A DNA stretch of 64,000 bases. Source: Ceratodon purpureus. Lineage: Eukaryota; Streptophyta; Bryopsida; Pseudoditrichales; Ditrichaceae. Positions 7,091 through 59,583 of this stretch are shown piece by piece. Every line of letters begins with the position of its first letter. Position 1 is the first letter of the stretch. The position numbers and the translations under genes were made by a program. The notes below the pieces were generated by a model that had not been told where the DNA came from, did not search any database, and saw only the letters and a program-made list of their open reading frames with translations. The stretch covers positions 55,237,375-55,301,374 of the forward strand of contig CM026426.1 in the NCBI GenBank assembly GCA_014871385.1. The letters are read 5' to 3'.

Positions 7091-7131
<41 letters not shown>

Positions 7132-15914: not shown

Positions 15915-15925
15915 CTGTCGGCCAT
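15915..15925 (-). pseudogene. Gene 1 first coding exon
   Basis: ATG at 15923–15925 in AAAATGGCC context is followed by eight more coding bases and a GT donor. Joining to 15369 keeps frame (MADS...). An acceptor upstream (cctttttgcag at about 15980) suggests a further 5' untranslated exon. Confidence 0.55.
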
Positions 15926-15980
15926 TTTATTGTTTTTTCTTCAGATTCCGCCGTTGTATAGCTGATAAAACGTGTTATGC

Positions 15981-18285: not shown

Positions 18286-18361
<76 letters not shown>

Positions 18362-39780: not shown

Positions 39781-41718
39781 GGAAAATTCAAAAATCTCAA
39801 AGTTATCATGGTGACAAGATTGCATCACCTCACATCTCGTGCCGCCTTGCTCGGATGCCGCCGCCACCATCCTCGCCAGCCCTCCCATCACATCTTGGTC
39901 GGCTACAGCCGCCAATGTCTCCCCTCCAGCCATCCTCCAAGGCACCCCGTCACATCCAGGCCGCCTCTCTGCCCAGTCCATCACCTCAGCTCCCATCAAA
40001 GCCCACTGCTCAGGCCTTCTTCTCCAAGGACCAAGCCCAGTGCTCGTTCTGCTCCACACCATCACCATTCTCCTCTCCCTGCCTTCCGCTCTCGCGCTTG
40101 TTGCTCACCAGGGACGCCATGGCTCCGAAGCCGCGCAAACCCGCTCCTCCATACTCCGTCCCACAGCAGATCCTCGACTGGAAGCGCCGGGCCGACATGG
40201 TCTGGACCACGAAGACCGGGTTAGTAAAGTATTGGACACTTATGGCAAGGAAAACAGATTTGGCACTATGTCGAGAGTTTGTGCAGTCCATGAGGGAGCG
40301 AAGTGAGGACGAGCCTTACCCTTCCGGCTATGTCAATGGCATCCTCGTGCAATACTCCAGTCGTTACCTCCATGAGTTCTTCGGCTGGGACGGCACGGCG
40401 TCACCGAATGGAGCCCCGCGTGTCTGCATCCGCGGCCTGACCTCCAAACTCTGGTACACAACACTCCTCTCCGAGCTGATAATTGCTATGACGTCTTTGT
40501 TTTGGGCAAGGTCCTCCCGAAACCCTGGTTCTCGCGGATCCGGGGCATCCTGAGCCAAGTGTTCTTCAAAAACAATTGCAACGTGATCACCGCGGACCAA
40601 CTCACGCTGCTGTTCATGGCGGACATTGGGGAGAAGATTAATTGGGGGCTTCTCGTGGACGAGAACTTCAGAGTTCAGCTGCGTGGACACCGCCGAGCGC
40701 AGGATTACGAGAGTCCGATTGGTCCATTCCTCACGGCCTACATCCAGCATTAGCTTTCCTACCATCGACGAGAGAATCGCGCACCTGCTCTGGGCACATT
40801 CTTGGACATCCAGCGGGAGATGGCAGCTCCCGCCGTCCCTGCCCTTGAACTCGCAGCACCCAGCCACAGCCACAAGCGCCCACGCGTTGCGGAGCAGGAA
40901 CCTGAGGGGGCCGTGACACAGGAGACAGCATGGGGACCTCGCACCAAAGCATTAGCAGCCATCGTGGACGAACTAATACAGTTCACACATACAACGGAGC
41001 AAGAGAAAGAGAAGCTAAACACGGCACACAAGGACCAAGAGGAACGCACCAGGAAGAAGACGGCTCAGGCGCTCCAAAGCGCCCAAGCACAAGCTGACAG
41101 GGTCTTGGAGTCCACAAAGGCAGAGTATCGCCAGCAATTGGAGGAAGCCCAAGCCACACTCACCAATCTCCGAAATCGCGTTGCCAACCTCGAACTAGAG
41201 GTGGGAAACACGCAGGAACAGATGGATTTACTAGCCAGAGAGAAGACATACGCAGAAGAGAAGGCGCAGCGATTGGAGCAGCTCAACAAGGAGTACTTGG
41301 CACGGTGTAAGGCGTTGACCACGGAGCAGGCCCCAACCATGAAACAACCAACACAGGCAGAGCATGAAAAATTGCGCTTAGAGCAGCTGGCAATTGATCA
41401 AGCTCGCGAGAACTTCGAAGTCAACAAGGTTGGCTGGACGCACACCGCCACCCACGCCATAGCTTCCATTGCATATCGGATCTTACGAGCTCAGCCACCT
41501 ACAGAAGTAAATCCTCCTACCGATTTCATCAACGCCTGCATCGACGACGCCATGGCTGCCCTCGAATTGGAGCACTCGGACAACGATTGGGAAGCCATGG
41601 AGCCGGAGAGTTACGAAGATCCTATACCAGCAACCAATACGGACAAGGGCAAGGGAGTATATCAATCACCGCCGCGAAGGGAATTGCCACCATCATCAGA
41701 GTTGGGGCAGGGATCAGG
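39781..41718 (+). pseudogene. Ty3-A ORF3, 5' part (split by MULE-D)
   Basis: ORF3 follows integrase in frame through a Pro/Ser-rich linker, without the stop seen in Ty3-B. From MAPKPRKPAPPYSVPQQILD at about 40120 it matches Ty3-B ORF3 (DWKRRADMVWTTKTG, SEDEPYPSGYVNGILVQYSS, FFGWDGT). A one-base frameshift lies near 40396 and a TAG at 40751–40753. Then a long coiled-coil segment (40802–41700, NLELEVGNTQEQMDLLAREK) with an HTATHAIASIAYRIL helix runs to the MULE-D insertion. The 3' part is at 58999–59583. Confidence 0.8.
41708..41718. repeat. Target-site duplication of MULE-D (left)
   Basis: CAGGGATCAGG, exactly repeated at 58999–59009. Ignoring MULE-D and one copy restores the ORF3 frame (QGSG on both sides). 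Confidence 0.93.
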
Positions 41719-41840
41719 GGGAAAGTTTGTATGTGAGCGGAGAGCATAGAGCGGAGAGCAGAGAGCACAGAATGGAGAGCACAGAATTGACAATTAGCAA
41801 AATTTTCAAAAGCAAAGTAGACCCTATAACCGTGGAAAAT
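41719..41840 (+). repeat. Left terminal inverted repeat of MULE-D
   Basis: It begins GGGAAAGTTTGTATGTGAGC and pairs with the complement of 58810–58998, with several gaps and mismatches. The last clear block is ACCCTATAACCGTGGA at 41820–41835. Confidence 0.8.
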
Positions 41841-42395
41841 TACTAAATTAAGGCTTGATCTTGACACTTTTTTTAGGAAAAGAGTATATTACCGTGGAAA
41901 TCAGGGTTATCTCTGGTAAGAATTTATTACGTTTGTTCTCTTAGATACAAATTAGGGCTGATGTCATGATGATGTCATGCATACATTCCCTTAGATTTGG
42001 TCCCTTATTGGATCTAGATACGAGTATTCCAGCATGATGTTTTTAGATTAGAACATTTAATATTGAAAAAATTGAGAATATACTACTAAATGAGGTCCAC
42101 GTCTTCAACGCTTTTGCTATACTGAAAGGAATATTGCAAATCAGAAATTATATTGTTGAAAACTTCTTCGAATATTTAAATAAGATGTACAATAATGCTG
42201 ATAATGAGTCCAAAATTATATACATCCTAGAAATGCTTCACGTATTTGATAATTTCTTCGTCTTTGGCTAAGATGTATTGAAGCATTCTTAAGTCAATTT
42301 TTGTTCCATATAAACGTAGGTGGTTTGAGTTCATATTATTTCAATTAGCAGTTCGTTGAAGTGAATGTTGCTTATGGTAGACATAGTTTGAGAGA

Positions 42396-42908
42396 ATGAG
42401 CGATTCCCTTGAAGTCATAGCTTGTGAAACAATTCTTCAGGATTTGCTGAGAAGGATGGCAGATGGACCTGACCCTTGGGAATCCGTGGGCTCTACTGGA
42501 GCACAATATTGGACTCCTACACCAGTGATTACATTTCAAGATGTTGAGAATGCTCGTGCTGTTTCGAAGCTCTGGAGACGGGAGATTGACAGCAGTCCAG
42601 AGTATGCTTGCCTCAGACTTGCTAAGTGGGATTATGATTCATATACCGGAGGGCACTGGACTTCCAGGGATGAGTTTTTAGCGATTCGTTTCAATGTGAA
42701 CTGGAACATTTTTAAGACGTCTTGGTCATTAGCAAATCCAATTAGAAATGACAGGCTAGAAACAGCGTCACTTGGGGAACTTAGTTGCAGTGAGTTAGAG
42801 CAATTGAGGACATTGTTAAGTAGCAATGGTAACCAATCAATGTGGCTCGAAAAGGGACAGAAACTCATTGCAGGTGATGGTGTTTGGGTGTCACCTAAAC
42901 ATAGATGA
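42396..42908 (+). CDS. F-box-like protein
   Basis: An intact 170-codon frame. The N-terminal half has the F-box layout: a helix with hydrophobic spacing (ETILQDLLRRMADG) and then NARAVSKLWRREIDSSPEYA, matching the usual (R)xVSKxWRxxIDSxPE block. F-box proteins recruit substrates to SCF ubiquitin ligases through SKP1. The C-terminal half (about residues 75–170) has no recognisable substrate-binding repeats and is short, so it may be a truncated or adaptor-only form. It lies near the left end of MULE-D in the orientation of the transposase. I infer capture of a host gene; the F-box call rests on a short motif. Confidence 0.6.
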   Translation: MSDSLEVIACETILQDLLRRMADGPDPWESVGSTGAQYWTPTPVITFQDVENARAVSKLWRREIDSSPEYACLRLAKWDYDSYTGGHWTSRDEFLAIRFNVNWNIFKTSWSLANPIRNDRLETASLGELSCSELEQLRTLLSSNGNQSMWLEKGQKLIAGDGVWVSPKHR

Positions 42909-43962
42909 GATTGGTATAACTATGAATATATGAATTTCAGATTTTTCCCTTATTTCTGTGTTTGAGATATTCTTTATTATATATTTCGGGTTTATATACT
43001 TTCAGCTGTTTCTTACATTATAATCACCCAAAAATAGTCCTTTCATTCCACTTCTTCATTCTTTGTTTTTAATACAGAGTACTACTGTTTTGTAATTTTT
43101 TTCATCCATCGAAGGCACGTGTGTTGGTACATTTCTCCTTTGCTATCATGAAGTTTTGGGCAATGGAAAATACTTGACTGATTATATATTGGCGTGTCTT
43201 CATTTTGAATATGTTTCGGTATCTAAAATTTCGGCACCTAAAGTTATATATACTTTGGTATATATATTTCTATATTTTGGTAAATTTATATATTTCGGTA
43301 TCTAAAATTATTGTTTTTCCTTACATTTTAACCGCAGAAAACTTAGACTTTATTCGACTTTTTCTTATCGATCTAATATAATAAACATACCAATTTCAAT
43401 ACAAATTATTTAATCCATTCTGAGCACACATCTACTCTGTTAGTTCATTTCTCATTTACTATCGTAATATTATATGTGAAGCTTAATTCTGTAGTGTTCT
43501 TAAATTTCTGGTGAACTTCTTTTCAAATGATTTAATCATTTCAACCAGATGTCCTCTCCCAACCTATGACGATTATATGTATAAGAGACTTGATTACATG
43601 TAATAATACCCGACACTAAGTTTAGGGTGAGATTTAAACTCTGAAAACTCTGTACAGCCCGTTTCTAATGAAGGCGCCTCCTTCTTGTACGACGGAGATA
43701 TAATTCCCTCTCAAAACATGTGATCATAATAAATAAAGTCATGAGTTTCCCATAGGATTTCATCCATCTCGCCGTTTAGGTCCAGAATTATAGTCGTTGC
43801 TAACTCTTACACACTGTTGCAGCAGTGATCTAGTTCTATATCTCTCTTCCAATAGTCTATGTACGTTCTTCACTACTGAATTTTAAGCTCGTAGTTCCGA
43901 CACTGTTCTTGTAGAAGTCCTATTACTACTGCTGCTACTGTTGCCAGTAAGTTCAGGATCAG
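42909..43962. other. Non-coding spacer in MULE-D
   Basis: AT-rich, with short degenerate repeats of TATATTTCGGTA (43200–43310). No gene recognised. It presumably holds the promoter and 5' leader of the downstream coiled-coil/RING gene. Confidence 0.5.
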
Positions 43963-45456
43963 ATGACGTCGAAGAGGAAGAAGGCGAGCAAACAACATAG
44001 ACCTAGAGCACAGGGTTCTATGCATCAAGTTTTAGACGTTCAGGATCTGAGTGACGATAATACTGTAGGTCGTAGTGAGGGGGAAGGCGGTAGTGATAGA
44101 GTTTTCAGTACCGAGGAGTTTAGTGACCCATTCGATCTTTCTGAATTTGAGGAGGGACTCCGTGAGAGGATGCTTGATGCTGCGCCAATGTTGAAAGGGC
44201 GTGATGCCGAGTACGGGAGAGTGTTTTTCACTGAGGTCGTTGGTCTCTCCGACCAAGGCCCGCTTCTAAAGGATGTGGCCAAGTGTTATGCTTTCATCAC
44301 TGATGAAGAAATAGGGACGGTGTGGAAAACAGGAGCTTCGAAGGGGCGATACGAGTTCTCAAGATGCGAGGATGATGACCAGCTGAAGACGTTTGGACAA
44401 CAATATTTCAAGGTCTATGGTAATCGGCCCCACAACAACTACTTTTGTCTACGTTTTCTAAGAGCTTGTTTCGCTTCTTTTGTGTACGGGAAACAAGTTA
44501 ACTGGTGCGCTGAGGCATTGGACCGACACCAAATGCGACAGAAGTCCGCTTGTCGAAATCCATCGAAGCTCGGCCCAGTTGCAACCAGATGTCAAGTAGA
44601 AGGATTGTGCAGGATAATCAAGGAGCTCTCTCACTCAGGTACAGCTGTGGCACAGCCTCATGTTCGGGGTTGCGAGTTGAAGGCTGCATTGGAACTGGAG
44701 CAGCAAAAGATAAAGGAAGTTGAGTCAATTGAGGATTGCCTACACGATATACGGCAGAAGTATAATTCGAGTCTCGAAAGGATGAGAGGAGAATCACTTG
44801 AGGCAGTAGAAGAGGATTTGAATGACAAGTATTCTGCGAAACTGAAGGAGGCGAGGCAAATTCTACGTAGCGAGGGTGCTACTGTTTTGTACAAGGAGAC
44901 CATTGCCGAGGTAGAGGAGTTGCACAAAGACCTCGCATATATGAGGGAAGTCGGTGCCCAAATCCGAAAAGATGTTGTTGACCTGGAATTACAGATGGGG
45001 AATGAAGCTAAAATACTGGCGGATTACAAGGGAGAATTAGAGCTATGTAAAAAAGCAGTGAGGGCCGCGAGAGAGGAGACGCTCATTCTTAAAACACCAA
45101 GAGTGTTTGAGTATCCACAGGTTCAATCCATTCCTCCCATGGGATATTCAGGTAAAGATAATTGTTCTTACTGTGGGCTCGGATTTATTTGGAAAGCAGC
45201 TGTACTGTCTTCTTGCGGTTGTTTTTTGCACCCTCCTTGTGCCGCAGAGATGATCTTGTTGCAGAGTTACCGATGTGTGATTTGCAAGGATGTACTTTTG
45301 GCATCGTCTCCCATGCATCTCTCCGAGCCTTGGGTTGCTCAGTTTGGTGGTCAGCTGAATAGCAAACAGGAGGCGGAGTGTAGTAGTTTTGCAGCAGTTC
45401 TTAATGCTGCAAGGGATAGTGCCAAGGGACCAACAATGAATGGATCGAAGACTTGA
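43963..45456 (+). CDS. Coiled-coil protein with C-terminal RING-CH-like finger
   Basis: An intact 497-codon frame with no premature stop. The N-terminus is basic (MTSKRKKASKQHRPRAQGS) and then acidic. The middle (about residues 80–220) is an unrecognised globular region. Residues about 240–390 are predicted coiled coil (LELEQQKIKEVESIEDCLHD). The C-terminus has eight possible zinc ligands in the order C-x2-C-x(n)-C-x-C-x2-H-x2-C-x(n)-C-x2-C (CSYCGLGF, SSCGCFLHPPC, YRCVICK), which fits a C4HC3 RING-CH arrangement. Such fingers usually recruit E2 enzymes. Together with the F-box-like gene, MULE-D appears to carry two ubiquitin-related genes. The catalytic role is inferred only from ligand spacing. 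Confidence 0.65.
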   Translation: MTSKRKKASKQHRPRAQGSMHQVLDVQDLSDDNTVGRSEGEGGSDRVFSTEEFSDPFDLSEFEEGLRERMLDAAPMLKGRDAEYGRVFFTEVVGLSDQGPLLKDVAKCYAFITDEEIGTVWKTGASKGRYEFSRCEDDDQLKTFGQQYFKVYGNRPHNNYFCLRFLRACFASFVYGKQVNWCAEALDRHQMRQKSACRNPSKLGPVATRCQVEGLCRIIKELSHSGTAVAQPHVRGCELKAALELEQQKIKEVESIEDCLHDIRQKYNSSLERMRGESLEAVEEDLNDKYSAKLKEARQILRSEGATVLYKETIAEVEELHKDLAYMREVGAQIRKDVVDLELQMGNEAKILADYKGELELCKKAVRAAREETLILKTPRVFEYPQVQSIPPMGYSGKDNCSYCGLGFIWKAAVLSSCGCFLHPPCAAEMILLQSYRCVICKDVLLASSPMHLSEPWVAQFGGQLNSKQEAECSSFAAVLNAARDSAKGPTMNGSKT

Positions 45457-46418
45457 GAAGACCACTCCATCTATAAATCGGCAGATTTAATGGCGGATAG
45501 ATGTTGCGACAACATGAAATATTGGTCCATTGTATCTGAGGGCTTCTATTATTATTGTTATATATAGTGACTACTCTAATATGCGAACGAAGAAATTTTT
45601 ATTAATACTTCATGAAATGTCATAGGTCGGTTAATTAGATATTACAATTTTGGAATGATATAACTGAATTGTAGTAAGTACTGAATTCAAGACTCAATTC
45701 TGATGAGACCAATTTTCAATGTTAAAATGGTATTCTATGAGGTGCTAATTAAAATGACACTGAATTGTATTTTATGGTGTCTGTTAAATAGGCCTAAGTA
45801 AGTCCATTATATTAGTGTCGTCTCGAACATAAGCCAATTGTAAAAACATCTGGGCCGACACCAACTCACGTAGTCCTTACTGAATTCTAACGAATTTGAC
45901 ATTAATTTTAAATGGGAGGACTTGCAAACAACAAATGTTGATCCTCATGAATTACTGGCCTTCTGATCTAATTAAATTTGTATATCTGTTTAGTTTATAA
46001 AATTCACATGCAATCTCTGAGTTACTGAAATGAAAAAGAGAAGGGAAGAATGATAATAAGTTAGATCTACAAGTAGAGAAAAATGGTTCCACATGTTTAA
46101 CCGTGTGTCCTTGAATTTAAAACGGTCCGCCAATTCACTGAATTCGGAAGTGGAATTACTCGGCAGTAAAGTTTGCGCATATAGAGAAGCAAATATTCAA
46201 ACTCATTAGAAATGGCTCTAATTCATTAAGTAGTGCCTCATTTACTAGAATTTACGTAAATGCGCATTAGAGCCGAAACTAATTAAGAATTTTAGTATTG
46301 GGACTCGGCTATGGAATTTTGTTATAATACTATTTAAACGAAATAATCACTAAATAGAGAAGGACAAAAAATGAATATGCCAAAGAAGACATTCAAAATT
46401 TAAACATTGAAAGAAAAT
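45457..46418. other. AT-rich convergent 3' region in MULE-D
   Basis: Lies between the plus-strand RING-like gene and the 3' end of the minus-strand ParB–methyltransferase-like gene. No gene seen. It probably holds both polyadenylation regions. Confidence 0.5.
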
Positions 46419-48420
46419 CTAAGGTACAAATTCTACCTCATCCTCAGAGGCACTATGATCGATATAATATAGAACTCTAGGATCGTAATTTATGTTAGAG
46501 CTTGTTGATGCGCTAGAGCTACTTGTGGAAAGTTCTGCAAGAGCACAAGCTTGAAATTCGGCATACTCTGGTAATCGAAAAGTAGGACTTGTTGGAGACG
46601 ATGCAACGCGCCACAGATCTTTCAGTTTCAAGTGACTGCAAAAAACAGAATTAAATGTTGTTAAAACTCATGTGCAGGGTTGAGAGATAGGGAGAGGGGT
46701 AGGGAGACAGAGGCTGATGTAGTGGGAGGGAAAGCCGGGGGAGGGGTGGGAAGAGAGACGATTATATAGAGGGAATGAGGGATAGGGAGAGCAGTGTGGA
46801 CATACATGCAGATGTAGAGTAGGGGAAGGTCGGGGAGGAGGGGTGGGGTGGGGTGGGGGGGAGTTGTGGGATGGGCTTCGGGGGAGGGGTGCGGTGGGCT
46901 GGGGGGGAGGGGTGGGGAGATAGAGGGACGGGGGGGAGGGGTGGAGAGATAGAGGGACGGGGGGAGGGGTGGGGAGATAGAGGGACGGGGGGAGGGGTGG
47001 GGAGATAGGGGGACGGGGGGGAGGGGTGGGGAGATAGAGGGACGGGGGGGAGGGGTGGGGAGATAGAGGGACGGGGGGAGAGGTGGGGAGATAGAGGGAA
47101 GGGGGGAGGGGTGGGGAGATAGAGGGACGGGGGGAGGGGTGGGGAGATAGAGGGACGGGGGGAGGGGTGCGGAGATAGAGGGAGATATAGAGGGAGATAA
47201 AGAGGGAGAGAGAGACAGGGACAGGGGAAGGGAATCGATGACATAGGAAGGAGGTTAGGGGGCAAGGGTAAATATATAAATTCTGAAGAGTATGCTAAAC
47301 GAGAGGGAGTGGGCCATGGGAAGAGGAAGAAATTAAAGAAGCAATAAAAGATGGATTGGAAAAGTAAAGTGGGGCCAAAACATTGTGAAAATGGGACGAG
47401 GGCGGAACTTACTTACATAGATTAACTTTTCCCTTATCAGGAAGGGGTTCTTCGTCATCAGAGTCTATAAGGTCTTCTGTGTGAACAGGCATAGCTGGTG
47501 GTAATAATTTAGGAATGAACATGAGAGGTTCGAGAACCTCTTTGAATATCGACGTATCACCTTCAAGTGCAACAATGTGCCTGGAAGCAGCCCGAGCAGC
47601 CCTAACAGAGGCTCCTGAATCAAGAAACAATAATTAATTCTTATCCTCAAAAACAATATTTAAAAAAAATGAAAATCCAGGTAAAATATTACTGACCAGA
47701 TCTAGTGCTAAGGTCCACGATAACTCCATCACTTGGACATAATGCAGTCTCAAAAAGTTGTAGTAAAGAATCTGATTTTTCTTTAGGACCTCTCCAGAAA
47801 GCGTAGTCTTTTTTCTTCTTAAGGGCCGTCTCAGAAGTGACGACATTGAAGACAACATCATCCCTCACCAAGTCAACATTCCGAAACTCAGGATTGGCAC
47901 CATAGAGGAGCTCTTTTGGCTGTCTCTTGACAGAAGAAGGAAGGGTGCGGACAAGGGCAATAACTCGCGATTTCAAAGCCTGGGAATAATGAATTTGTCA
48001 GTATTAGAAGATAGTTTTAAAGGAATTACAACATTAAAGAAATTGAAGAAGAAGGAGGTAGAACTTACAAACTTTGAAGAGTCCAAGGGGTGACATAAGT
48101 GGAGGGAATTGATGACTGTCCACTCTTGCTTCTCTATCAGATTATTGTTATTGAAAAATCGCGATAATTCTTTCTTAATCTGGAGGTTGTCTGGGTAGAA
48201 AATAAGTAGTGCCCCGTCGTCATGAAGAAATCCTCCAGAAAAACCAACGACAAGTTCCAAAAAATTATGAACCTTCTCATTCCACGAAGGAATAGACGTA
48301 GGGGGCTGTGACACTCCTAGTACTGGCAGACCGTCTGGGTACTCTGCTATAACCAGGTCACATGAAGGCCTATCCGAAAACTGTCCCTTAAAAGAGAACT
48401 CCTTACCAGCTCTGACCTGA
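46419..48420 (-). pseudogene. Gene 2 methyltransferase-like exons
   Basis: Exon 48420–48070 gives CDLVIAEYPDGLPVLG where motif IV (usually DPPY) should be. A helix and strand follow (NFLELVVGFSGGFLHDDGAL, LLIFYPD), as seen after motif IV in beta-class enzymes. The next exons give FWRGPKEKSDSLLQLFE, then DGVIVDLSTRSG across an intron to ASVRAARAASRHIVALEGD, matching the pre-motif-I helix, motif I (VLDPFxGSG) and the acidic end of strand 2. Order IV then I marks a permuted N4/N6-type DNA methyltransferase fold. The catalytic box is replaced by EYPD, so the domain may be inactive or may bind SAM or DNA only. Confidence 0.55.
46640..47230 (+). repeat. G-rich polypurine minisatellite
   Basis: About ten copies of a unit of roughly 28–32 bp of the form GGGGGGAGGGGTGGGGAGAT / AGAGGGAC fill most of the last intron of gene 2 on the opposite strand. 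The G runs of four or more on the plus strand make quadruplex or triplex structures plausible. Confidence 0.9.
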
Positions 48421-49558
48421 AAGTAGTGAATCAGTCATGACTTCCCAAATACAAATAAGGATAAGACATCAAGAATTGAAAAGAATTGGTTTAAAAGTAT
48501 ACCTTTCTCAAAAAAGAGGTCATTGCATCATACGTGGGTGGGAACTTCTTGTTCTCTGATTTGAACTTCACCATGCCCGAGAATGTGTCATTCAGAACAA
48601 GAACTGTGCTAGATGTACTGGAAGAAGAAACTGGCTGCAGCAATTTCATGGACTTCAAAGAAGGGGGTGTTTGCTCATGCGGTGATGCTGCCCCTATCAG
48701 AGATATATGAGGGCGCTTGGCGGATTGAGTCGGTTGCTCTAGAGGAGCACTGACTGTGTCTACCTCGATTCCCTCCTCACCATTCTCAACACTCTGACCC
48801 TCAGCCGGACTTGGGCTCTTTACCAGCCGCGGTTGTAGCCGGAATATCTTCGTCCTGATCATCCTCTAATTCATCCGCCTTTCTCTTGAGAACTCGACCC
48901 TTCCCAGCCCCCTTGCCTTTCCTATTCCTGCCCTTTCGAGTTGGGGGTGACTTAGCCATAACTTCGGGGGCTGCTTTAGCTGGAAGCAACAAGAGAGCAG
49001 GCTGAATCGAATCTCGGAGAGGGACATCAAAGGCCGGGGGCTTCTTGGGTGGACAATCCATATACCAACCACATCTATCATAATGAATGGGGTCCCAAGC
49101 TTTAAGCATGGCAGGAGTATACATACACTCAGTGCTACTGAGATCTAAATAATTCGCGAAAAATGCAGGAACTTTAGATACTGCCTTGCGAGGATAGAGA
49201 ATGTACTTGAAGTACCTAAAAAGAACCCTCTTAACAGCTTGAGGGAAACTGGGCATCTGATCTAAAGTCTTGTTCTTGTGCACCTAGTCGGGACCTTTGA
49301 ACTCCCGGAAAAAAGCAACGTCCCACAAGGAGCATCGCATAGACTCGACATAATCAAAAATACGCTCAATAGGATCTTCACCCTCAGGCTCATAATTGAT
49401 ACTAACCCCCATATCATCAATCACATGGGAGAAGAGGTCTTCCACCTCGACTGCCAACTGCAACGCCAACATCATATAGCTTAGAATTGTAAACTACCTA
49501 AAACAAAGCATGAATTAAACATCAAAAATAATTTTAAAAAAAATTTAGCCACTCATTT

Positions 49559-49816
49559 GGTACTGCCGTTGCCGGCAGTACCCTAGCCGAGCTCATCGAC
49601 GCATGGTAACGTCGCTGATAGGCTGGGCTTGGGCACTGCGGGCAACCGCATTGCCTTTGGAGGGAACAGTCTCTGGGTACTGCCGTTGCCGGCAGTACCC
49701 TGGCCGAGCTCATCCACGCATGCTACCGTCGCTGACGGGCAGGGCCATGGTACTGCGGGCAACCGCATTGCCCTTAGACTGAGCAGTCTCTTGGTACTGC
49801 CGTTGCCGGCAGTACC
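49559..49816. repeat. GGTACTGCC palindrome array 1 (gene 2 intron)
   Basis: Three 24-bp palindromes (arms GGTACTGCCG and CGGCAGTACC around TTGC) lie at 49559–49582, about 49676–49699 and 49793–49816, inside a tandem repeat of about 117 bp. Each unit also has a weaker copy (CACTGCGGGCAACCGCATTG). The array lies in the intron between the exons at 49475 and 49911. Confidence 0.9.
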
Positions 49817-50688
49817 CTGGTCGAGCTCATGCAAAATTAGTTTTAATAAAATAGAAAAAAACTTATTTTAAAAATAGAGTGAATGTGAAATTATAGGAAA
49901 CCTCACCTGCGCCCACCAAGTAGCCTTGTGCAGCCAAGGTGGGAAAATAACATCCGAGAACTTCGGCTTCGGAAATCTATGTGACTCACGGATTGAGGGA
50001 GACGAGTTCCAGCGCTGGAGCCACTTCACTTTCATCTTCGGGGGCATTGCTAATGTCGCTAACATCCACAGCTTCTCCTGAGTCATCTCAGGGGAGTCGT
50101 CGTACTTCTCCTAGTGTAATTTTATTTGCTCAAGGAAGGCTGTAGTGTTGACTGGGTCCGCTATGGGAAGAAGCTTCTTTAATTCACTGAGGAATGTGTC
50201 TGCAGTTCTCTTCACGGCCTTACTGATCCACTCGTCCACAGATTTTGAGGTCCACTGATGCGGCTCCGGATACCTCTCGTACAAGCGACGTTTTGCAGCT
50301 GATGCGGCCTCCCCTAATTCTTGTTGCAACCAGAAGTGTACAAGTGTTTTAGAATTTAATATGAAGCTCACATGCAAGTTAAAAAAAATTCGGAATTGGA
50401 TCATACCTAATGAAGCACAGAATTCAGCCCTTCCAATGTCAATGTATACCACGTACGTTTTGCTCCGGCCTGCTTCGCTTTTGCAGTGTCCAATGTTGCC
50501 TTGCTCACAATTCCCTCGAAATAGGAAAAGGGTTGAGGTGCAATGCTCCGAATGCGATAAAGTTTATGAACCATGTTGGTCTCGACATGAGATTTCTGGT
50601 TCCTCCTGTACATTACAGAAAGGAGTTTAGGTATGAAATGGACAAGTACGTGAAATCGAAATGCATGTGAATCGAATGTAAGTCTTAC

Positions 50689-51250
50689 CAGTTTACTTCG
50701 TGTAGAGCCTCCAGTACTAATGCAACCTCGCCCTTCGGGTCAAGGATAATACTCTCCACTCTGAAATGCCATGAGAGATCTCCTGAATGAAATTGGTCAA
50801 TGACAGGGAGCCATGCCTGAAGTCTATGATTCCCGTCCCAAACCATAAACATCTTATTCGAAAACAGTTTAAGATCATCATCTGCAAGTAGCTCTTGTTC
50901 AAATTCCTTGTTCCGAGCTTGCCACTCCACACTCCATTTATCAGAAATGGCCTTTGTAACATCCCTGGTTTTACCATGATTGTCTTCAAGAGCCACATAG
51001 AAATAACCATTTCCCTCGAGGTAACCGCAGCTAGTGAAATGCGATGACAATGTAAGAACATCATTCTTCAACGACGGCCTCACTACAGGTAGTGCCATCA
51101 TTCTACAAAGAGGTATGTGAAGTTTTCCCTTCTTAGTAGGCTTCCATCTCAGTTGATCTAACCGCGATGCTGTATTCGTTTGGGCCTTCCCCACCAGCTC
51201 ATTGAGCTTAAGATTCACCTCCAATTCCGTCAACGGGGCCGCATCAGCCT
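50689..51250 (-). pseudogene. Gene 2 ParB-like exon
   Basis: An open exon of 562 bases with no stop. A basic N-terminal part (RLDQLRWKPTKKGKLHIP) is followed by strand-helix segments and the ParB-type box KMFMVWDGNHRLQAWLPVI. Here the DGxHR core is intact, unlike the NGQHS of gene 1. In ParB/Srx-like proteins this box forms the nucleotide-binding or nuclease site. The exon joins to the next with a split Trp codon. Confidence 0.65.
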
Positions 51251-52112
51251 CTATGCAAGACACACTCACAATTATTTTAAATGAGTTCACATGTAATAAA
51301 TCGACACTGTAAGACGTGGACTTTGAAACCCCTAAGCAATTTAGTGAACAGACATGGTATGTCAACATTATCAAAACGAACTAAACCACTGAATGGTACT
51401 GCCGGCAACGGCAGTACCTCCAGACCGTCCATGGAGTTTTCTCCGTGGACAGCCTTGGGGTACTGCGGTTGCCGGCGGTACCCCAAGGGTGCAGCCCCGC
51501 ATCCCTTTTTGCCATGCTCACCAGGTCATCGGATGGTACTGCCGGCAACGGCAGTACCTCCAGAGTGTCCATGGAGTTTTCTCCAAGGACAGTCTCGGGG
51601 TACTGCGGTTGCCGGCAGTACCCCAAGGGGGCACCCTCTCCCTCGATCGCCATGCCGACAAAGGCATCATCGGGGTACTGCCGGCAACCGCAGTACCCCG
51701 AGACTGACCAGGGAGAAAACTCCATGGACGGTCTGGAGGTACTGCCGTTGCGGGCAGTACCCCAAGGGTGCTCCCCTTTCCCCGATCGCCACTCCCACTA
51801 AGGCGTCGGCGGGTACTGCAAACTACACCATCGGGGGGTACTGCCGGCAACGGCAGTACCTCCAAACTATCAATGGAGATTTCTCCGAGGATAGTCTTGG
51901 GGTACTGTGGTTACCGGCAGTACCCCCCGATGCCCCCCCGCGTCCCGATAGCTCTGCACACTTAGGCGTCGGGGGTACTGCCGGCAACGGCAGTACCTCC
52001 AGACTATCCATGGAGATTTCTCCGAGGATAGTCTTGGGGTACTGCGGTTGCCGGCAGTACCCCCCGATGGTGTCCTACTGAAAATTCAATGAAAAGAAAT
52101 AAGTAACCATAC
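51251..52112. repeat. Gene 2 intron 2 with palindrome array 2
   Basis: The 862-bp intron is set by donor GAAGAGG/GTATGG (52112, minus strand) and acceptor gcatag/AGGCTG. It holds about ten copies of the GGTACTGCC palindrome between 51395 and 52065, for example 51395–51418 and 51535–51558. Spacers of 35–60 bp contain TCCATGGAG and CTCCGAGGATAGTCTT. Copies alternate between a TTGC and a GCAA centre and the units recur about every 140 bp. Several copies have complementary changes in both arms (CTGCGGTTGCCGGCAG against CTGCCGGCAACCGCAG). Confidence 0.9.
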
Positions 52113-52956
52113 CCTCTTCATCGTCGTCTTGATCGTCGGCTTCTTCTTGTGGTGGAGTCTCCTTGAGCGTATGGGAATCTCCATCGTCTTTGGAAACTGC
52201 CTCCTTCACTTCCGGTGAGGCCATATCCTCGTCTTCTCCGTGCTGCATCTCAACGTCCTCGGTATCCTCTTCTTGCTAGCGCTGTCCAAACTGAGGCATC
52301 TATTGGAGCAATGGAAGAACTAGGGTTAGGTTAGAGAAGGGAGAAACCAATGGAGAAAGGCAAGAACTGATTCTAAGGAAGTATGGAGCCAAGGCTCGAC
52401 TAAATGAAAGCAAAATATAAAAAGTATAGAAAGAGGAGAAGGGTGCCGTCTAGGATCGGCCAATATGGGATACCTATAAGAATGATTGATTCCATAAGAT
52501 TATCGCTACACATCGTGAATGTTGAATTAGGATAAGAAATTTACGACACTGTAAATTCTAGAAATTGCAAATATTATATTCACTTAATAATGATCTCCAC
52601 TTTTCTGTCATACTCCTAACACTTGGTTGGAAAAGAAAAAAAATCTAATCATTTCCACTTGAAGAGAATGAATTTACCTTGTCGTCGTTGCTGTCACTTG
52701 ATTCAGACAGCACCGGTTGGCAACTTTTCTTCTCTGTCTTCCCTGTCTTCTGCCGTCTATCGTAGCGTAAGGTTTGATCGTCACAGTCCTCGGGCTCTTC
52801 TTGCAGCGCTTCCGCAAACAATACCTTTGTAATGCCCTCCTTCTCAAATCGCTCAGACTGCTTAAGCTTCTTTGCCATCCTACTCCTTGCTAATTGTTTT
52901 GCAGAACTATAATGCGTCCCCTGCTTTCTCCTCCTCTTTCTAGTTGACTCCTGCAT

Positions 52957-53479
52957 GTCACTCACAAGCCATCTAACAAGCACCACAAAAAAAAAGACAA
53001 ACCAAAGATGATTGGTGCTCAAACACACGTATCAGTACTGATACTCAAAAAGACAGAGCACAACTCAGTCCAGCAATCTATAATGAAAACTGATGAACCC
53101 TAACACAGAATAAAATATACAATTTGAATAAATCATATGCTTGCATTAGTCCTATATATATATAACTAATGCATGAATTTGATTAATTCAAATTCTATAT
53201 ATTTATTGTTTTAAATGTAGATGGAAAAGACGGCTCATTCTAATCTGATCACACCCAAAAAGATAAAGAATCTGCTCCACGATTCAAATACTTAAAGCAA
53301 TATTCTAAAAGTCTTACCCCATATTTATGGGCCTGCAAAAAGCAACATTATAATTAGTTAGCGCCGTCTCTCTTTAATCATACATTCCTTACGTAGCAGA
53401 ATGAATCATTACGTAGTCGTCCCCATGGACATTCCAATTTGAATAAAATGATCAACAGCGATGCATCATTCCTCTCACT
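52957..53479. promoter_or_regulatory. Probable divergent promoter region in MULE-D
   Basis: About 520 bp of AT-rich sequence separates the start of gene 2 (minus) from the transposase frame (plus), with TATATATATAACTAATGC near 53155. The head-to-head layout suggests shared or coordinated transcription; this is an inference from layout only. Confidence 0.45.
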
Positions 53480-56400
53480 TTGCTCTCGCGATACTGCTTT
53501 GCTAGTACACTCCCTCTTCTCCGTTCTTCCTCTAGTATCTCTGAGTTACTTGCGAACATGGGGATGGTCTGTCTGTACGCCCAAGGCATGGGCATCCCTC
53601 TTAGGTTTCGCGTAGATGACGATGGTCTAGCTACAGTTTCCTCTCTTCGCCTGAGTCTCAGATTCCATTTCCGTGAGGATTCCATCAGTATAGAGGAGGA
53701 GATCTTTGATGACGTTACTGCCGAGGTTACCCACACGTTCGAGCAGCCTTCAGTGAGAGATGAGAACAATCTGTTATAGTGGAGACTCTTCCCTGGATCC
53801 TATAGAATCTATGGTCTTACCGATTCTCTGATGGCTGCATCCACTGAGATCCTCACCCCCCGTCGCTCTTCTACATGTACAATTCAGACTCCCTTACCTC
53901 GTGATGTCAAGGTCAAAGTCAAGCCTGGTACTGAAACTTCAGACGTAGAGAAACCTCCCCCTCCGACAGTCATTTCTCTCTCTTCTGATGACGAAGTCAG
54001 TCCCGTCAAGTTGGTGCCTAAGGTCCACGCTGATGCTCCTCTTTCCAGTGTCTCTCCTTCATTGTCTCAGGTCACAGTTAGCATTGTTCCGCTCCTTAAA
54101 GAGATTGCTAAGACGCGTGGTTCAAAAAACATTCTAAAGAAGATAGACTATTCCACTATTAGACACGAGAGAGTAGAGTACTTGCCTGCGAACTTTGATG
54201 GTCCGGTTCTTTTTGAGTTGCCCCCAGCTGCTGCAGGTTCCTCTAAGCTTGCCGCCAAGTCAATGCAGGGAATAGACAAACGATACAACGGACACTTGTG
54301 GACCAAGACCATCACAACAAACATCAAAAACGACTTCGGACTATCTTTTCGAAGTTCCACCTGCGTCGGATGGCTGCGCTGCAGCAACAAGGAGTGTGAC
54401 TTCCTCAAGCGTGTTCCCAAGATCTTCGAGGTTAACAAGACTGAGTTCGAAGGGTGTACCTTGCAAGCTTTTCTCATGGATCAGCCTCCTCCATCTGACT
54501 CCACGCTAGTGTGCAAGGTATGTAAAGAACCTCCATCATGTGTAGCTACATGCGAGGCTAAGATTTATTACGTAGTGGGTAAAGCGAATCAAACTAGAGC
54601 TTGTATTCACATAGGAACACATGATCATCCAGTGAAAGTTGGAGACTACAGAGACTCTAAAGCAGAGATTAGTAGCTTAATAGAAGAGCAGGTAGAGATG
54701 AACAACAAAGCAACAAAGAGCGCCGTTGTCTTGGAGGCTAGCAAACTCCTCATCGGGAGCTACCTTCTACAGCCCGAGGATGCACCACCGAGGAAGCTGA
54801 CGATGGAGGAGCTGGTTCCTGTTCTGGATCGTTGCAAAGACATGGCGTCACCAAACATCCGCAACAAAGTCGCCACCTTCAAGAAATTCAAAAGGTACGG
54901 AATCATGGACGGTATCACCAAGCTCCGTGGAAACAGTCTCTGGGCGTATGTCCAGGAGAATAGGTTTCCTGGTCAGGGATCTATGCGTGACAAAGTCTTC
55001 GTCTTCAAGATGTCGGAGGTCGGGCCGGGAAGTGGTGTCGACTTGGTCAGCCGAATGCAAGCTGGTGGAGATTTGGAGAACGCATGGATCATGTTCGACC
55101 ATGTTAAACGCGTGAAAGATTGGTCGACGATGGCGTGCCATGTGTACGACGCCACCTACTGCCGCGTGATGACAATCGCCACTTGCGACATGCAGTTTGA
55201 GGACACGGAGGCCCAGCTCGTCTTCTGGAAAAACCTAAACCTGGTCATGGAGATCAATGGCGTTGCAGCGCCGAACTTCAAGGGGTTCATGGCGGATAAC
55301 GCACAGGCGAATTGGAATGCAGTGCGAATCCTTTACGGCAATGGCAACAAAGAGGATCCAATGGAGGACCGGGAGAGGTCGTGCTTGTTCCACTAGACTC
55401 AGAACATGGTGGCGTATACGCAGAAGCACTTCCCCGAAGAACTCTGGGAACAGCACAAGAAGATGTGCACTCAGTACAAGAATGCGACCAGCATGACAGA
55501 GGCGGAAACTTTGTACCACGAGTTGCGAGCCTGGTGGGCATCCACCGGGGTCGTTGGCGAGAGCGGGCTCATCAAACTGGATCAGTGGCTGTCATTCTGG
55601 CACCACCGCTTCCGCCAGTGGGGGGGATTCATGACCGAGGTATTATCTCCGCACTCTGTTTTCATGTTTTTGATACTGGTTTCCTAGCCCTAACCTACAA
55701 AACTCTAATCGGTGAATCTAACGGCACCTCCTGTCTAAACTGCAGAAATTCACGGAAGAAGAACTCACAGAGATGCCGACTTGTAACCTCGCCGAAACAG
55801 TTCACAACAAGTGGCTCCAAGCTTCTGGAAACAACGGGAACGACCTGTACGTTGCTACCGTAGACGATTTCGTTCGGGCTTTTCTACAGGTTGTCAACTA
55901 CTACCAGTTCCCCAAAGGTGACGTCGACGGAACAGGACCATCCAAGAAGGAACTCAGGCTCCGGATGGCTGAACGCAACGCCAAGAAATGGGGAAATCCT
56001 ACACTGCTCGATAAGCCCATGCTCGATATGCCAGGCGCGGATGAGTTCTGCACCCGTCAGCCTATCATGCCTGGAGCGGAAGTCTTCGGTTCACAGAAGC
56101 GAAAAGCCGACGTCCCTATCGGAGCTGACGAGGAGTCTCATCGCCCGGACAAGACAAACTTCTTGCGCCCAAGAGGCCCAAGACGTGCCGTCAGGGCTCG
56201 CCCTATGCAGATGCCCGTCATTGTGGAAGACGACTCCGAACACGACACCGAGGTACAATGTACCCAACCTCCTGCCCAGGAAGTTGATTCCCCTTTACCT
56301 TCACCTGTGAACAAGGGCGGCATTCGCCATGTCAACGCGGTTGAAGAAACTAAGGTCGACGTCAAAGAGTGGCACATCTCAAGACTTCACAAACTTTCTG

Positions 56401-57239
56401 CTAAGTGCTGCTGGGCCCAAAGAGCTGAAACGAAAAAGAAGTGCACTGAGAGAATCGTCAGGGGGCCCCATTGCAGAGCTGCACCGATCAACAGTGGGCT
56501 CTGGACTAACTATCGCAGGAACACAGTCCAGAAGACAGAGTTCTTCTTCTGCTCCGACGATACTGAGCACTGCGTGCAAGGCTCTAAGCGCAAGTGGGTA
56601 GCACACTACTCAAAGGACCAGGAATTCCCCTCCATTCCTGAGGTCTGGCCAGTGAAACTAGGTACTAACCTAAAACTGACTGAGATTCTAGCCCTTGAAG
56701 CAGCAGGCTTTCAACTTCCGCCGAAGAAGCCGGTCTCCCCAAGACGCCTCTTCTCCTCTGCCCCGCCCCCCGCAAATCTCAGCTCGGTGCCAGTCCCTGC
56801 AGACGCTGACCGCTACCCAGGCAAGAGAGACGGCAAGATGGTGAAGCGCACTGCCACTCGTCCCAATCCGGCGCAGCGACTCTCCATGGGCTCCTCCGAG
56901 TCACTGAAAGCGCGCCTCCGTTCCGTCACCATGATACCTGAGCCGCGCCACGGTTGCATCATTGGGCTGGATTCGAGCGTCGCTCCACACATCACACGGT
57001 ACCAGATTACCATCAGTTCTTACCCTGGTTGCACTTGTCCTGCATTCAAGAAGACGATGACTTTGTTCCGAGGCTGGACTCAGTTCACGTATTGTAAGCA
57101 CCTTTACTACATACTCTTGAAGGTCTGCAACCGTGATCCCGAAGAGGAGCTTTTCATCCATGCGCCCACCTTCAGCTTTAACGAGGTCAAGCTACTCCTA
57201 GAGAGTGGAATCTTGCGTCACCCCTTGGCGAAGAAGTAG
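53480..57239 (+). pseudogene. MULE-D transposase with two in-frame TAG codons
   Basis: One frame runs from 53480 through TAG 53777–53779 and TAG 55394–55396 to 55639. A 106-bp intron (55640–55745, GAG/GTATTA...CTGCAG/AAA) follows, then one frame to the stop at 57239. The N-terminal region has a WRKY-GCM1-like zinc part (VGWLRCSNKECDFL, CKVCKEPPSC, ACIHIGTHDHPV). The DDE core has D1 in HVYDATYCRVM, D2 in GFMADNAQANWNAV, the CxxH motif CLFH and the catalytic Glu in PTCNLAETVHNKWL. A SWIM finger follows (CTCPAF...CKHLYYIL). The TAG after CLFH replaces a position that is usually Trp. All catalytic residues are present, so only the two stops stand between this gene and a full-length enzyme. Confidence 0.85.
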
Positions 57240-57486
57240 GTAGCCCTCCTACTTTAGAACTGCCATTTCCACAATGGCCATTTTTCACGTAGTGAATGAT
57301 TTTAGTAATATACCATGTACTAAGTCAGCTATTCAGAAGCTGTATTGACTTTTTCATTATATTAAAGGCTTTGTCGTTCACATTGATTGCATTCTATTTC
57401 AATACATTCTATCTTGAAGAAGTGCACTATATACCTCGTATCCCGTGACATGTATCTTTTATTACAGCAAACATATACTTGTTATT

Positions 57487-57946
57487 AGATGTCCTAATCT
57501 TCGAACCTAACACGTTTAGGGTTGCCCACTGCACTATCAGCAGGGCTGCGAACCTCTGACTGTACTGCAGGACAAACTACATTTGCGTTCACCTTCGTTC
57601 CCACACTTGCCAAGTGTCCTAGGTATGAACGTTTCAGCAATGCCCCACCTCCCCGCCTCCGATTCACTGATTCCCTGGAATAGGTTCCCCTTGGGATCTT
57701 TCCAACCTTGGAGTATGCATGAGGTTGCAAAGGCACATCTGCGTCCTCCTCCAGCACTCTGATATCATCCGAATTTTCTGAACGTGGAGGGTCAGCTCTT
57801 ACATCCGGTTTCACGTCAGTATCCGTTGTTAAAGGACGCCCTTGGCTGTTGGCCACCACCTCTTCTTCGTCCTCCACCTCAACATATGGTTGAAATGGAC
57901 AAACATCGTCAGCAAGTGAAACAACAATATCTTTGACGTCTTCCAT
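57487..57946 (-). CDS. Small hypothetical protein near the right end of MULE-D
   Basis: An intact frame of about 150 codons starting MEDVKDIVVSLADDVCPFQP. It is acidic in the first half and basic in the second (NRRRGGGALLKRS, NPKRVRFED), with no domain I recognise. It faces the transposase convergently. It could be a DNA-binding accessory protein; that is a guess from charge distribution. Confidence 0.45.
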
Positions 57947-58299
57947 AGCTGCTGTCCCGCACTACGGAAAAGAGCTTCACATAACTCCAACACAAAAGAG
58001 GCAGAGACATTCCCTACACTTATCTTAAATATCCCTAAAGAAGATGTTTGGCGCCCTTGAAAATCGGTTATTCATTCATTTGAAAGTTGTCATCGTCCTC
58101 AACTGAATGCAAAAGGATGAGGGTTGAGCAGAAGTCATTTAGCATTTAAAATTTAAAAATAATAAAATAAAAGAAAAAAATTTATAAAAGCAAAAAGAAA
58201 AAAAGAAAAAAAAAAACATTTTAAAAAATGAAATTAATAAAATAAAAGTAATCAAAAGCAAAAATAAATATTAAGGTTGAAAATAATATGAAGGCGACT

Positions 58300-58500
58300 A
58301 AGAAAATGAAAGAGAAAAGAAAATGAAAGAGAAAATAAAATGAAAGAGAAAATAAAATGAAAGAGAAAATAAAATAAAAGAGAAAAAAAAATGAAAGAGA
58401 AAATGAAATGAAAGAGAAAATAAAATGAAAGAGAATGAGATGAAAGAGAAAATAAAATGAACTAGAAAATAAAATGAACTAGAATTAAAGGAAAGGAAAG
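58300..58500. repeat. A/G-rich tandem repeat
   Basis: About ten copies of a 17–18-bp unit (AAAATGAAAGAGAAAAT) occur in the right subterminal region of MULE-D. The low-complexity Phe/Ser frame on the minus strand is not a gene. Confidence 0.9.
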
Positions 58501-58809
58501 ATAGATAGAGTAATGAAGGGTAATATGAAAAAAAAAAAAAATAAACCATGTAGACCATGGCGGATGATTTCTAACATGTTAAGAAAATGTTACGATATTA
58601 AATGTTACTTTATCCCTCTTTAGAGCTTCAATATCAATACATTTTAAGCGGTAATTTGCATATAAATTTGAGGAGATAAGGGGAATTAATGTATGCCTGA
58701 ACTAGTTAGAAGAAGCAGGAGCATAGTAATTGGTGCACGTTAAAAAATTAATCACCAAGAAAAGAGAAAACGAACTACAAATTCAATGAAAATACTGTAA
58801 TTAATCCAC

Positions 58810-58998
58810 GGTTATAGGGTTAATAAAATTACTAAAATTAGTAACTTTCCAAAAATATACTGGAAATATTCGAATCTTCTAATTTTATAATTTATTTTTA
58901 GTAAAAAAAGTGCTATTTTTAGGTTCTGTCCCCCACTCTGTGCTCTCTGGTCTCCGAATCTGCGCTCTCCGCTCTCCGCTCACGTACAAGCTACGTCC
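58810..58998 (-). repeat. Right terminal inverted repeat of MULE-D
   Basis: It ends ...GCTCTCCGCTCACGTACAAG CTACGTCC at 58998. Read on the minus strand it matches the left end at GTGAGCGGAGAGC, GAGAGCACAGA and CCCTATAACCGTGGA. Confidence 0.8.
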
Positions 58999-59583
58999 CA
59001 GGGATCAGGAGCACCACACCACGCAACGCCAGCAGCAGTCCTCCACGATCCTTCCGAGCATGTGGACATCTCCGAGCACCTCACGGACATCGAGGAGACG
59101 TCCCAGATATCACCACGCCTCCACGCATCCCCCTTGGGACAGCCCACCCTGCACTCAAACCCGGTAAATTCCCGACCTCAGTCCATTAAATTCCACAAGG
59201 ATGCATTGAAACGCATAGAAGAGGAATATGACCTAGAGGAGCAGGCTAGCGATGATAGCGAGGCTGAGGGAGAGTTAGCCACAGCTGTAGCTCAAGTCAC
59301 CAAATATTTCGAGGAGAATTCCGACTTAGCATCTCGATATACAGACCCCGAAGCTGACCACGTACAATGCCCGGCTTGCAACAAGGTTTTAGGAAAAACT
59401 GTGTTCGATGTGTATCAACACTCCGTGACTTCCCGAGCGAAGCACAGTCTAATTCATAGAGGTGTCGCTGCAGCTATAGCTAACCTATACGGGGGTCAAG
59501 CTCCTCCTCGGCGCCAGGCACAACTTCCTCGAGAAACAACACGCCCCGACAGGAGACCCGCGCATCGCAGATCCAAGGCTTGA
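58999..59583 (+). pseudogene. Ty3-A ORF3, 3' part
   Basis: It continues the ORF3 frame interrupted at 41718. It contains HDPSEHVDISEHLTDIEET and an acidic helix (ALKRIEEEYDLEEQASDDSE). The C2H2-like motif is CPACNKVLGKTVFDVYQH followed by H in SRAKHSLIH, then an Arg-rich C-terminus to the stop at 59581. The domain order matches Ty3-B 26430–25735. Confidence 0.85.

Follow-up and report, generated by a model that had tools for sequence, protein, structure and literature searches.

Large Mutator-like elements of the moss Ceratodon purpureus carry a ParB-like/methyltransferase gene with lineage-specific palindrome arrays in its introns

Introduction

How a transposon may escape silencing by its host without waking the whole genome is an open question, to which VANC in Arabidopsis is one answer. 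The question is raised again by a locus of the moss Ceratodon purpureus, which we analysed in a window of 64,000 nucleotides (the whole stretch under analysis; GenBank assembly GCA_014871385.1, contig CM026426.1, positions 55,237,375 to 55,301,374). The window holds a complete Mutator-like element (MULE) of 17,281 bp with two divergent genes, one for a transposase and one that we call the ParB-like/methyltransferase gene. An earlier note on this DNA had proposed a large cargo-bearing MULE family, whose ParB-like and methyltransferase-like domains might mark or segregate element DNA.

In this study, we show that introns of the ParB-like/methyltransferase gene contain palindrome arrays and that the palindrome sequence differs between gene lineages, which is new. 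By analogy, the arrangement is best read as a VANC-like self-recognition system that would be built from unrelated proteins. In the open literature we found no paper describing a MULE with such a gene (closed papers and preprints were outside the search).

Results

A complete element in many copies

The element, its boundaries and its transposase gene are as follows.

41718..58998, plus strand: complete MULE, from its ends, terminal inverted repeats, duplication and copy comparison
41708..41717, no strand: left copy of the 10-bp target-site duplication, CAGGGATCAG, from sequence reading and copy comparison
58999..59008, no strand: right copy of the duplication, CAGGGATCAG, partner of 41708-41717, from the same evidence
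41718..42000, plus strand: left end with terminal inverted repeat; about 280 bp are common to the element types A and B described below (95-98%)
58960..58998, plus strand: right terminal inverted repeat
53780..57236, plus strand: transposase, exons 53780-55393 and 55722-57236; D, D, CxxH and a SWIM-like CTC..CKH read by eye

The matching inverted ends reported in the earlier note are confirmed: the terminal inverted repeats measure 34 nt, are 85% complementary and recur as a MULE hallmark in the ten other copies that we compared, the left end in all ten and the right end in nine. The right end of the tenth, C6_108.4, lies outside the fetched stretch and is present among the right-end matches listed for the genome. 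The duplication had been given as 11 bp and is 10 bp. The base before GGGAAAG is G in all 13 left ends read (the window, nine other copies and the loci L003, L004 and L008), so that this G belongs to the element, and the 11th base is mismatched in C1_28.3, C3_3.68 and C8_12.13. An exact duplication of 10 bp, within the 9-11 bp characteristic of MULEs, flanks nine of the ten copies with both ends in the stretch, window included; eight of these, again with the window, were found by scripted 11-base comparison and C9_6.28 by reading, C6_108.4 being left out of the count. C4_2.08 has both ends in the stretch and no target-site duplication. An assembly artefact was rejected, since copies with different duplications lie on several contigs.

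A retroelement open reading frame (ORF) with a CPxC zinc-finger-like motif occurs twice in the window, at 25735-26436 (minus strand) and 58891-59580 (plus strand), and one of the two is split by the 17-kb element. That the interrupted frame is restored when the element is disregarded, as had been claimed, is supported on the right flank, which matches the uninterrupted paralogue at 25735-26436 with 58% identity (E 1.7e-79). The left flank matches weakly, with a colinear piece of 38% over 37 residues (E 0.07), and the restored frame is based mainly on reading of the sequence.

The DDE/SWIM identity of the transposase is suggested by motifs read by eye; Pfam gave no match at E up to 1. A protein of the liverwort Riccia sorocarpa, R1sor_010999 (P0079), is 32% identical over 29% of the transposase query, and by this match the transposase lineage appears to extend beyond mosses.

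The genome search proposed in the earlier note, with both ends and the transposase, revealed a multi-copy family. In the genome of 362 Mb, matches number at least 40 for the left 182 bp, at least 40 for the right 219 bp and at least 80 for the first transposase exon, window included; among the matches listed, identity to the window is 97-98% for the left end, 89-94% for the right end and 96-97% for the exon. Eight copies were chosen for comparison where left end and transposase were both among the matches listed (C8_7.05 also had a listed ParB-like match), and C3_3.68 and C4_2.08 because a ParB-like match lay beside the left end or the transposase. All ten near-complete copies contain the transposase and the ParB-like/methyltransferase gene in unchanged order and orientation. 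Type A comprises the window copy and three others with the same cargo, except that an ORF of 173 amino acids is absent from two of the four. Type B comprises seven copies that have the left 280 bp in common with the window copy (95-96%) and, from a point shortly before the transposase as far as the right end, are 91-93% identical to it, one copy being only partly covered. Their middle differs; the same gene is found there, its ParB-like exon at 40-44% and its methyltransferase exon a at 30-33% protein identity. Over about 18 kb, all 250-base bins compared between C8_10.56 and C8_11.27 show 99-100% identity, but the two copies have different duplications, which indicates that elements this large have moved recently. 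Eight further left-end loci (L001-L008) included two of type A and five of type B, and L003, where gene exons lie about 1 kb from the end, shows that shortened derivatives exist.

Older relatives, type D, were sampled at eight loci chosen solely by ParB-like matches of 58-82% identity. Six have a first transposase exon 73-74% identical to that of the window, and at L029 the stretch stops inside the transposase start region with the arrangement as in the window, so that seven of the eight show transposase sequence in the same arrangement; at L033 no transposase was found within the 8 kb examined. The predicted large, multi-copy, cargo-bearing family was therefore recovered, with gene and transposase together in ten of ten relatives and again at 73-74% transposase identity. 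Copies without the gene, or a cargo present once in the genome, would have spoken otherwise; the ten fetched copies all have it. A one-off gene capture was rejected on the multiple genome matches and the presence of the gene in all fetched copies, and the gene does not resemble the content of a Pack-MULE, a fragment of a single-copy host gene missing from other copies. The ParB-like/methyltransferase gene is a core gene and not captured cargo. The window lies on C6, a contig of 110.5 Mb that also carries 68 of the 150 listed ParB-like matches of types A and D; C6 is probably a sex chromosome, an assignment made partly because the sex chromosomes of C. purpureus are large.

The ParB-like/methyltransferase gene

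The gene and the two palindrome arrays in its introns are located as follows.

47415..53031, minus strand: whole gene, from the N-terminal exon 52648-53031 to the last exon near 47415-47613; last boundaries by eye
52648..53031, minus strand: basic N-terminal exon, transcribed divergently from the transposase; matches in type A copies and at seven of the eight type D loci
51395..52061, no strand: palindrome array in the intron 5' of the ParB-like exon, eight matches to GGTACTG[CT][CG]G-N4-C[CG]G[CT]A[AG]TACC
50688..51251, minus strand: ParB-like exon, IPLCRM..VRP ... KMFMVWDGNHRLQAW, from sequence reading, copy comparison and dN/dS
49907..50604, minus strand: exons 2-4, from copy comparison
49559..49816, no strand: second palindrome array, three full sites, in the intron between exons 4 and 5
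49053..49472, minus strand: exons 5-6, from copy comparison
47976..48434, minus strand: methyltransferase exon a; the motif IV position reads EYPD here, DIPE in type B and DPPY in CcrM
47470..47997, minus strand: methyltransferase exons b and c, with WRGPKEKS and S-adenosylmethionine (SAM)-binding motif I

Exons of types A and B align from the ParB-like exon through the methyltransferase exons; among the type D families the methyltransferase half was read in L029. The C-terminal half matches the N4/N6 methyltransferase family PF01555 with 38.3 bits (cut-off 26.7; E 1.8e-9; type B row 1). PF01555 was matched by two of four rows and a PHROG methyltransferase family by all four. The methyltransferase profile aligns with CcrM along 18-229 (E 0.0013), and the DPPY of CcrM falls on DIPE in type B and EYPD in type A. 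The catalytic motif (D/N/S)PP(Y/F/W) is thus replaced, by DIPE in five type B sequences and by EYPD in two type A copies, L029 and the window. SAM motif I reads DLSTRSG in the window, DLSTGSG in two other type A copies and DWNAGTG in type B. These matches identify the C-terminal half as an amino-methyltransferase of the N4/N6 class in which the DPPY motif is degenerate, and this degeneration makes its methyltransferase activity doubtful. It resembles CcrM-type and phage amino-methyltransferases in the PF01555, PHROG and CcrM matches and in its order, motif IV first and then EKS and SAM motif I; it differs from the CcrM type in the DIPE or EYPD that stands for DPPY, in the fused ParB-like half and in the introns that split the gene.

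The N-terminal half contains IPLCRM..VRP followed by VW[DE]GNHRL.AW, an order of motifs which we take to be that of a ParB domain. With the complete spliced protein as query, no relatives were found. A profile of the ParB-like exon gave 267 matches, among them P0129, which is annotated in C. purpureus and 59% identical.

The ParB-like exon is under purifying selection on par with the transposase: dN/dS is 0.08 between type A copies and 0.11 between type B copies, as compared to 0.08 and 0.07 for the first transposase exon. For methyltransferase exon a the values are 0.15 (one type A pair) and 0.41 (type B, at dS 0.07).

Two repeats in or near the gene may be recorded here. A G-rich 28-bp minisatellite, GGGGGGAGGGGTGGGGAGATAGAGGGAC, at 46681-47223, 3' of the methyltransferase gene, is matched in other type A copies. 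The type B N-terminal region of C8_10.56 (L009/L010; joined coordinates 6811-7260, minus strand) contains YMPTSPVYMPTSPVYEPTSPGY repeats, which resemble the tail of RNA polymerase II.

Palindrome arrays differ between gene lineages

The intron 5' of the ParB-like exon contains arrays, and type A has further ones between exons 4 and 5. Type A and L030-L032 have the palindrome GGTACTGCCG-N4-CGGCAGTACC, with related sites in L029 and L036, and L034 has AGCAGTGCCGTT.AACGGCACTGCT. In type B, CCTACTGTCGT-NN-ACGACAGTAGG is found in C8_10.56, C8_11.27 and C8_12.13, with close variants in C6_108.4 and C9_6.28, and GGGGCATTCTGT.ACAGAATGCC in C8_5.30 and C1_28.3. One kind of palindrome is therefore common to type A and its nearer relatives, and type B has at least two kinds.

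With exact arms of 8 nt, at least two palindromes of one kind are present at 16 of 19 loci (five to twelve at 15 loci, two in C9_6.28). Twenty dinucleotide shuffles per locus gave at most one recurring palindrome, and eight transposase stretches gave none or one. Of twelve control bins in the window outside the element, ten gave 0-1, one gave 2 and one gave 4, the last at 14000-17500 in a second repeat family. Counted without regard to recurrence, palindromes amount to 1.6 to 14.5 times those of one single-base shuffle per locus; it is the recurrence and not the total count that stands out. Genome-wide, the A pattern has 334 sites and the pattern called B1 has 1802, and the reversed patterns have none.

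The pairing of palindrome and gene was examined on the first 50 listed distinct sites in contig order (A sites on C1-C3, B1 sites all on C1), with 150 listed gene matches each for A/D and for B and a distance limit of 6 kb. Of the A sites, 42 lie near a listed A/D ParB-like match and none near type B; all 50 B1 sites lie near a listed type B match and none near A/D. Counted by array, the pairing holds for 7 of 11 A arrays and 5 of 5 B1 arrays. Among the sites listed, no palindrome of one of the two lineages compared was found near the ParB-like gene of the other.

The ParB-like half and its array differ as one module

Trees of the two genes conflict (15 rows). The transposase groups A and B against D with support of 100/100, and the ParB-like sequence groups A and D against B, likewise with 100/100. 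Among type B copies the median dS of the ParB-like exon is 1.3, that of methyltransferase exon a 0.07 and that of the transposase 0.09. DNA identity was measured against C8_10.56 in 250-base bins. Between the left end and the end of the methyltransferase exons it stays at 87-99%, except for a single bin in C6_108.4 with 71%. Across the ParB-like half, the array and the larger part of the N-terminal exon it falls to 59-88%, or the sequences cannot be aligned; C6_108.4 reaches 92% in this part. Over the transposase it is 91-100%. A second dip, to 69-76%, occurs near 18251-18750 in some copies. The ParB-like half and its array thus differ as one module between otherwise near-identical elements, and the methyltransferase half does not. 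Co-variation of the ParB-like half with the palindromes beside a constant methyltransferase half would be expected if the ParB-like half reads the palindrome.

Discussion

We consider it likely, judging from the sequences, that the protein recognises the palindromes of its own element. That these elements form an autonomous MULE family in which such self-recognition affects their own expression or silencing is the reading towards which we lean, with less assurance, and an anti-silencing role in particular, proposed by analogy with VANC, is tentative. Of the guess that the domains mark or segregate element DNA, the lineage-specific arrays make self-recognition likely and leave segregation unsupported.

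The mechanism might run as follows. From the two divergent genes, whose arrangement is observed, the element would express both a transposase and a two-domain protein. This protein would, with good probability, bind its own array, the ParB-like half being the DNA-binding part. The methyltransferase-like half would be the effector; it may retain some SAM-dependent chemistry, or it may serve to bind SAM or to recruit proteins. Binding would then alter the chromatin or methylation of the element and keep its regulatory DNA free of silencing, so that cognate copies and the transposase are expressed. Finally, exchange of the module could permit escape from silencing directed at the former non-coding DNA, which agrees with the arms race that has been proposed for VANDALs (PMC10398659). 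It is an even call whether there is a swappable identity module, that is a DNA-binding half with its own array, set beside a transposase, ends and a methyltransferase-derived effector that all stay constant, and exchanged as a unit by recombination between elements like the specificity domains of restriction-modification systems, in a design that may be general in these genomes.

Several observations weigh against self-recognition of this kind. L029 has a single exact palindrome, and L033 and L035 have none, only short-arm repeats. For eight of the 50 A sites, in 4 of the 11 arrays, no ParB-like match is listed nearby, although their partners may be unlisted; the sites of one array are not independent; and gene and array are physically linked, so that some co-variation is due to shared descent alone. 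The catalytic motif is degenerate, hence modifying activity may be absent, and in type B the constraint on methyltransferase exon a is the weaker one given above. In the window copy the gene contains an in-frame stop, a TAG at 50111-50113 between exons 3 and 4, and none is present in the 11 other copies read there. Finally, the ParB-like fold is unconfirmed. No ParB profile was matched by the N-terminal half in Pfam, NCBIfam, PHROGs or PDB (17 and 55 sequences; the NCBIfam input was seven proteins, including four ParB-like exons and the ORF of the second repeat family). Alignment with one SopB (N15) by hhalign reached a probability of 1.8%, and phage tblastn, IMG/VR contigs and GTDB contigs yielded no ParB identity. 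The sole profile hint is one of 17 rows that touches DndB (PF14072, E 0.19). The description 'ParB–methyltransferase-like' in the earlier note is accordingly upheld by PF01555 for the second half, degenerate DPPY notwithstanding, and not for the first, whose name comes from the GNHRL.A box.

Among other explanations, the protein might bind the palindromes as an accessory factor of transposition or as an autoregulator in the manner of mudrB, in end bridging, copy-number control or repression of the divergent promoter. The gene is divergent from the transposase, its ParB-like exon is equally conserved and the arrays lie inside its own introns, as such a role would have it. However, the arrays of the window are about 7-10 kb from either end, the eight transposase stretches tested contain no recurring palindrome, and the common ends are constant while the palindromes vary, so that the ends are not the variable target. 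We regard this explanation as unlikely, but as one to be taken seriously.

An action of the palindromes as RNA is improbable. They are intronic and would fold, and the hairpins could feed small-RNA pathways or affect splicing, but this leaves unexplained both the cognate pairing with the ParB-like half and the perfect symmetry of the sites (the centre is TTAA in 29 of the first 50 listed A-type sites). Slightly less probable still is a system for segregation or clustering, in which element DNA would be paired or tethered. Palindrome arrays beside a ParB-like gene resemble sopC/parS, and ParB-parS and SopB-sopC served as a working analogy of a protein beside a palindrome array. Sequence homology to them is not detectable here and ParB homology is unconfirmed, no ParA-like Pfam match was found in the ten window ORFs scanned (no search was aimed at ParA), and it is not obvious why a transposon integrated in a chromosome would need segregation. 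Least probable of all is chance, in which a captured gene has intronic minisatellites that happen to be palindromic and co-vary by linkage: minisatellites are common in these elements, linked sequences co-vary by descent and total palindromes in C8_10.56 are near those of a single-base shuffle (28 vs 17), but recurring palindromes of different sequence stand at the same place in several lineages and not in shuffles or transposase stretches, purifying selection is strong and the gene is in all ten fetched copies.

Self-recognition of the palindromes, the explanation that we prefer, is modelled on the VANDAL elements and their VANC proteins. The likeness lies in an autonomous MULE with a transposase gene and an element-encoded protein (PMC5735166; PMC10398659), in arrays of target sites, here candidate sites, in introns and other non-coding parts, and in a conserved transposase beside a protein and sites that vary between families. 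The target sites of VANC are tandemly repeated and variable, lie within introns as well as upstream of the transposase gene, and differ between related elements (PMC5735166). On sequence, the moss family likewise has a protein gene and in-element arrays of candidate sites that diverge between families. VANC, as described there, has DUF1985/DUF287 and a 9-bp motif arrayed in one orientation, whereas the moss element has an N4/N6 methyltransferase half, another N-terminal domain and palindromes of about 20-32 bp, and its gene half and array vary as a module. Anti-silencing has been demonstrated for VANC (PMC5735166) and for the moss element is proposed by analogy. In the ORFs and exons scanned, Pfam gave no match to DUF1985 or DUF287.

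MuDR (mudrA/mudrB) is, like the moss element, a MULE with two genes, terminal inverted repeats and a duplication of 9-11 bp, and differs from it in size, gene content and palindrome arrays. Pack-MULEs and ULP-carrying MULEs also contain non-transposase genes; the moss element is distinguished from them by an extra gene that is a conserved core in every copy examined and not a captured fragment. Fungal transposons with a TET/JBP dioxygenase are likewise DNA transposons with an enzyme of the DNA-modification type, which is proposed to counter silencing; their enzyme class is another one, and a cognate palindrome array is not mentioned in the abstract of that work (PMC12730594). In Marchantia spermiogenesis, an N4-methylcytosine methyltransferase of bacterial origin has been reported (PMC8885841); no kinship to the moss-element gene is implied.

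If self-recognition holds true, these elements would provide an answer independent of VANC, built on an amino-methyltransferase fusion. They would also offer a large natural set of protein/site pairs of differing sequence for tests of each against the others, and such pairs could yield sequence-specific epigenome tools. The exchange of modules would be a natural experiment on the evolution of DNA-binding specificity.

Other features of the element and the window

Three further ORFs lie within the element.

42387..42905, plus strand: ORF of 173 amino acids, F-box-like in the earlier note; in two of four type A and none of seven type B copies; no profile match
43951..45453, plus strand: ORF of 501 amino acids with a RING-like cysteine pattern by eye; no profile match above noise; companion of the ParB-like gene
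57497..57961, minus strand: small ORF of 155 amino acids; in nine of ten other copies (C6_108.4 is uncovered there), 87-94% amino acid identity

The ubiquitin-type genes announced in the earlier note received no support from profile searches in Pfam and NCBIfam. The RING-like ORF is a long-term companion of the ParB-like gene and not random cargo. Of 86 listed copies, 68 lie in the geometry of the window at most 30 kb from a listed ParB-like match, as compared to a mean of 0.43 and at most 3 in 200 shifted sets. It was not found in the seven type B copies, and neither was the 173-aa ORF. Its dN/dS is 0.35 between type A copies; the small 155-aa ORF, at 0.42-0.54, is under weak constraint.

Outside the element, window positions 10451-16000 belong to the second repeat family. 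It comprises a gene with an INGQHSVAA box (FWIINGQHSVAAS) at 13866-14819 (minus strand) beside a palindrome array. The palindrome is TTTAGCTCGA.TCGAGCTAAA, given for the gene locus at about 12-16 kb as GTTTAGCTCGA.TCGAGCTAAAC. The gene has 125 scored places in the genome, window included, and the palindrome 1686 sites, the reversed pattern none. Among the first 50 listed sites, the distance to a listed gene copy (four copies in all) is at most 6 kb for 32 and at most 10 kb for 49, and none is near the A/D or B ParB-like matches listed. Between the two gene families hhalign gave 0.8%, which is not significant, though the boxes align. If confirmed, two families without detectable relation may share one plan.

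At 4600-10462 lies a MULE-like element of its own, whose terminal inverted repeats measure about 400 bp (91-94%; 4600-4952 and 10054-10462). Its SWIM-like ORF at 9093-9860 matches PF04434 below the cut-off. This ORF was rejected as the transposase of the second family because it is flanked by the inverted repeats of about 400 bp and probably belongs to a separate nested element, which is apparently nested beside or in the gene of the second family.

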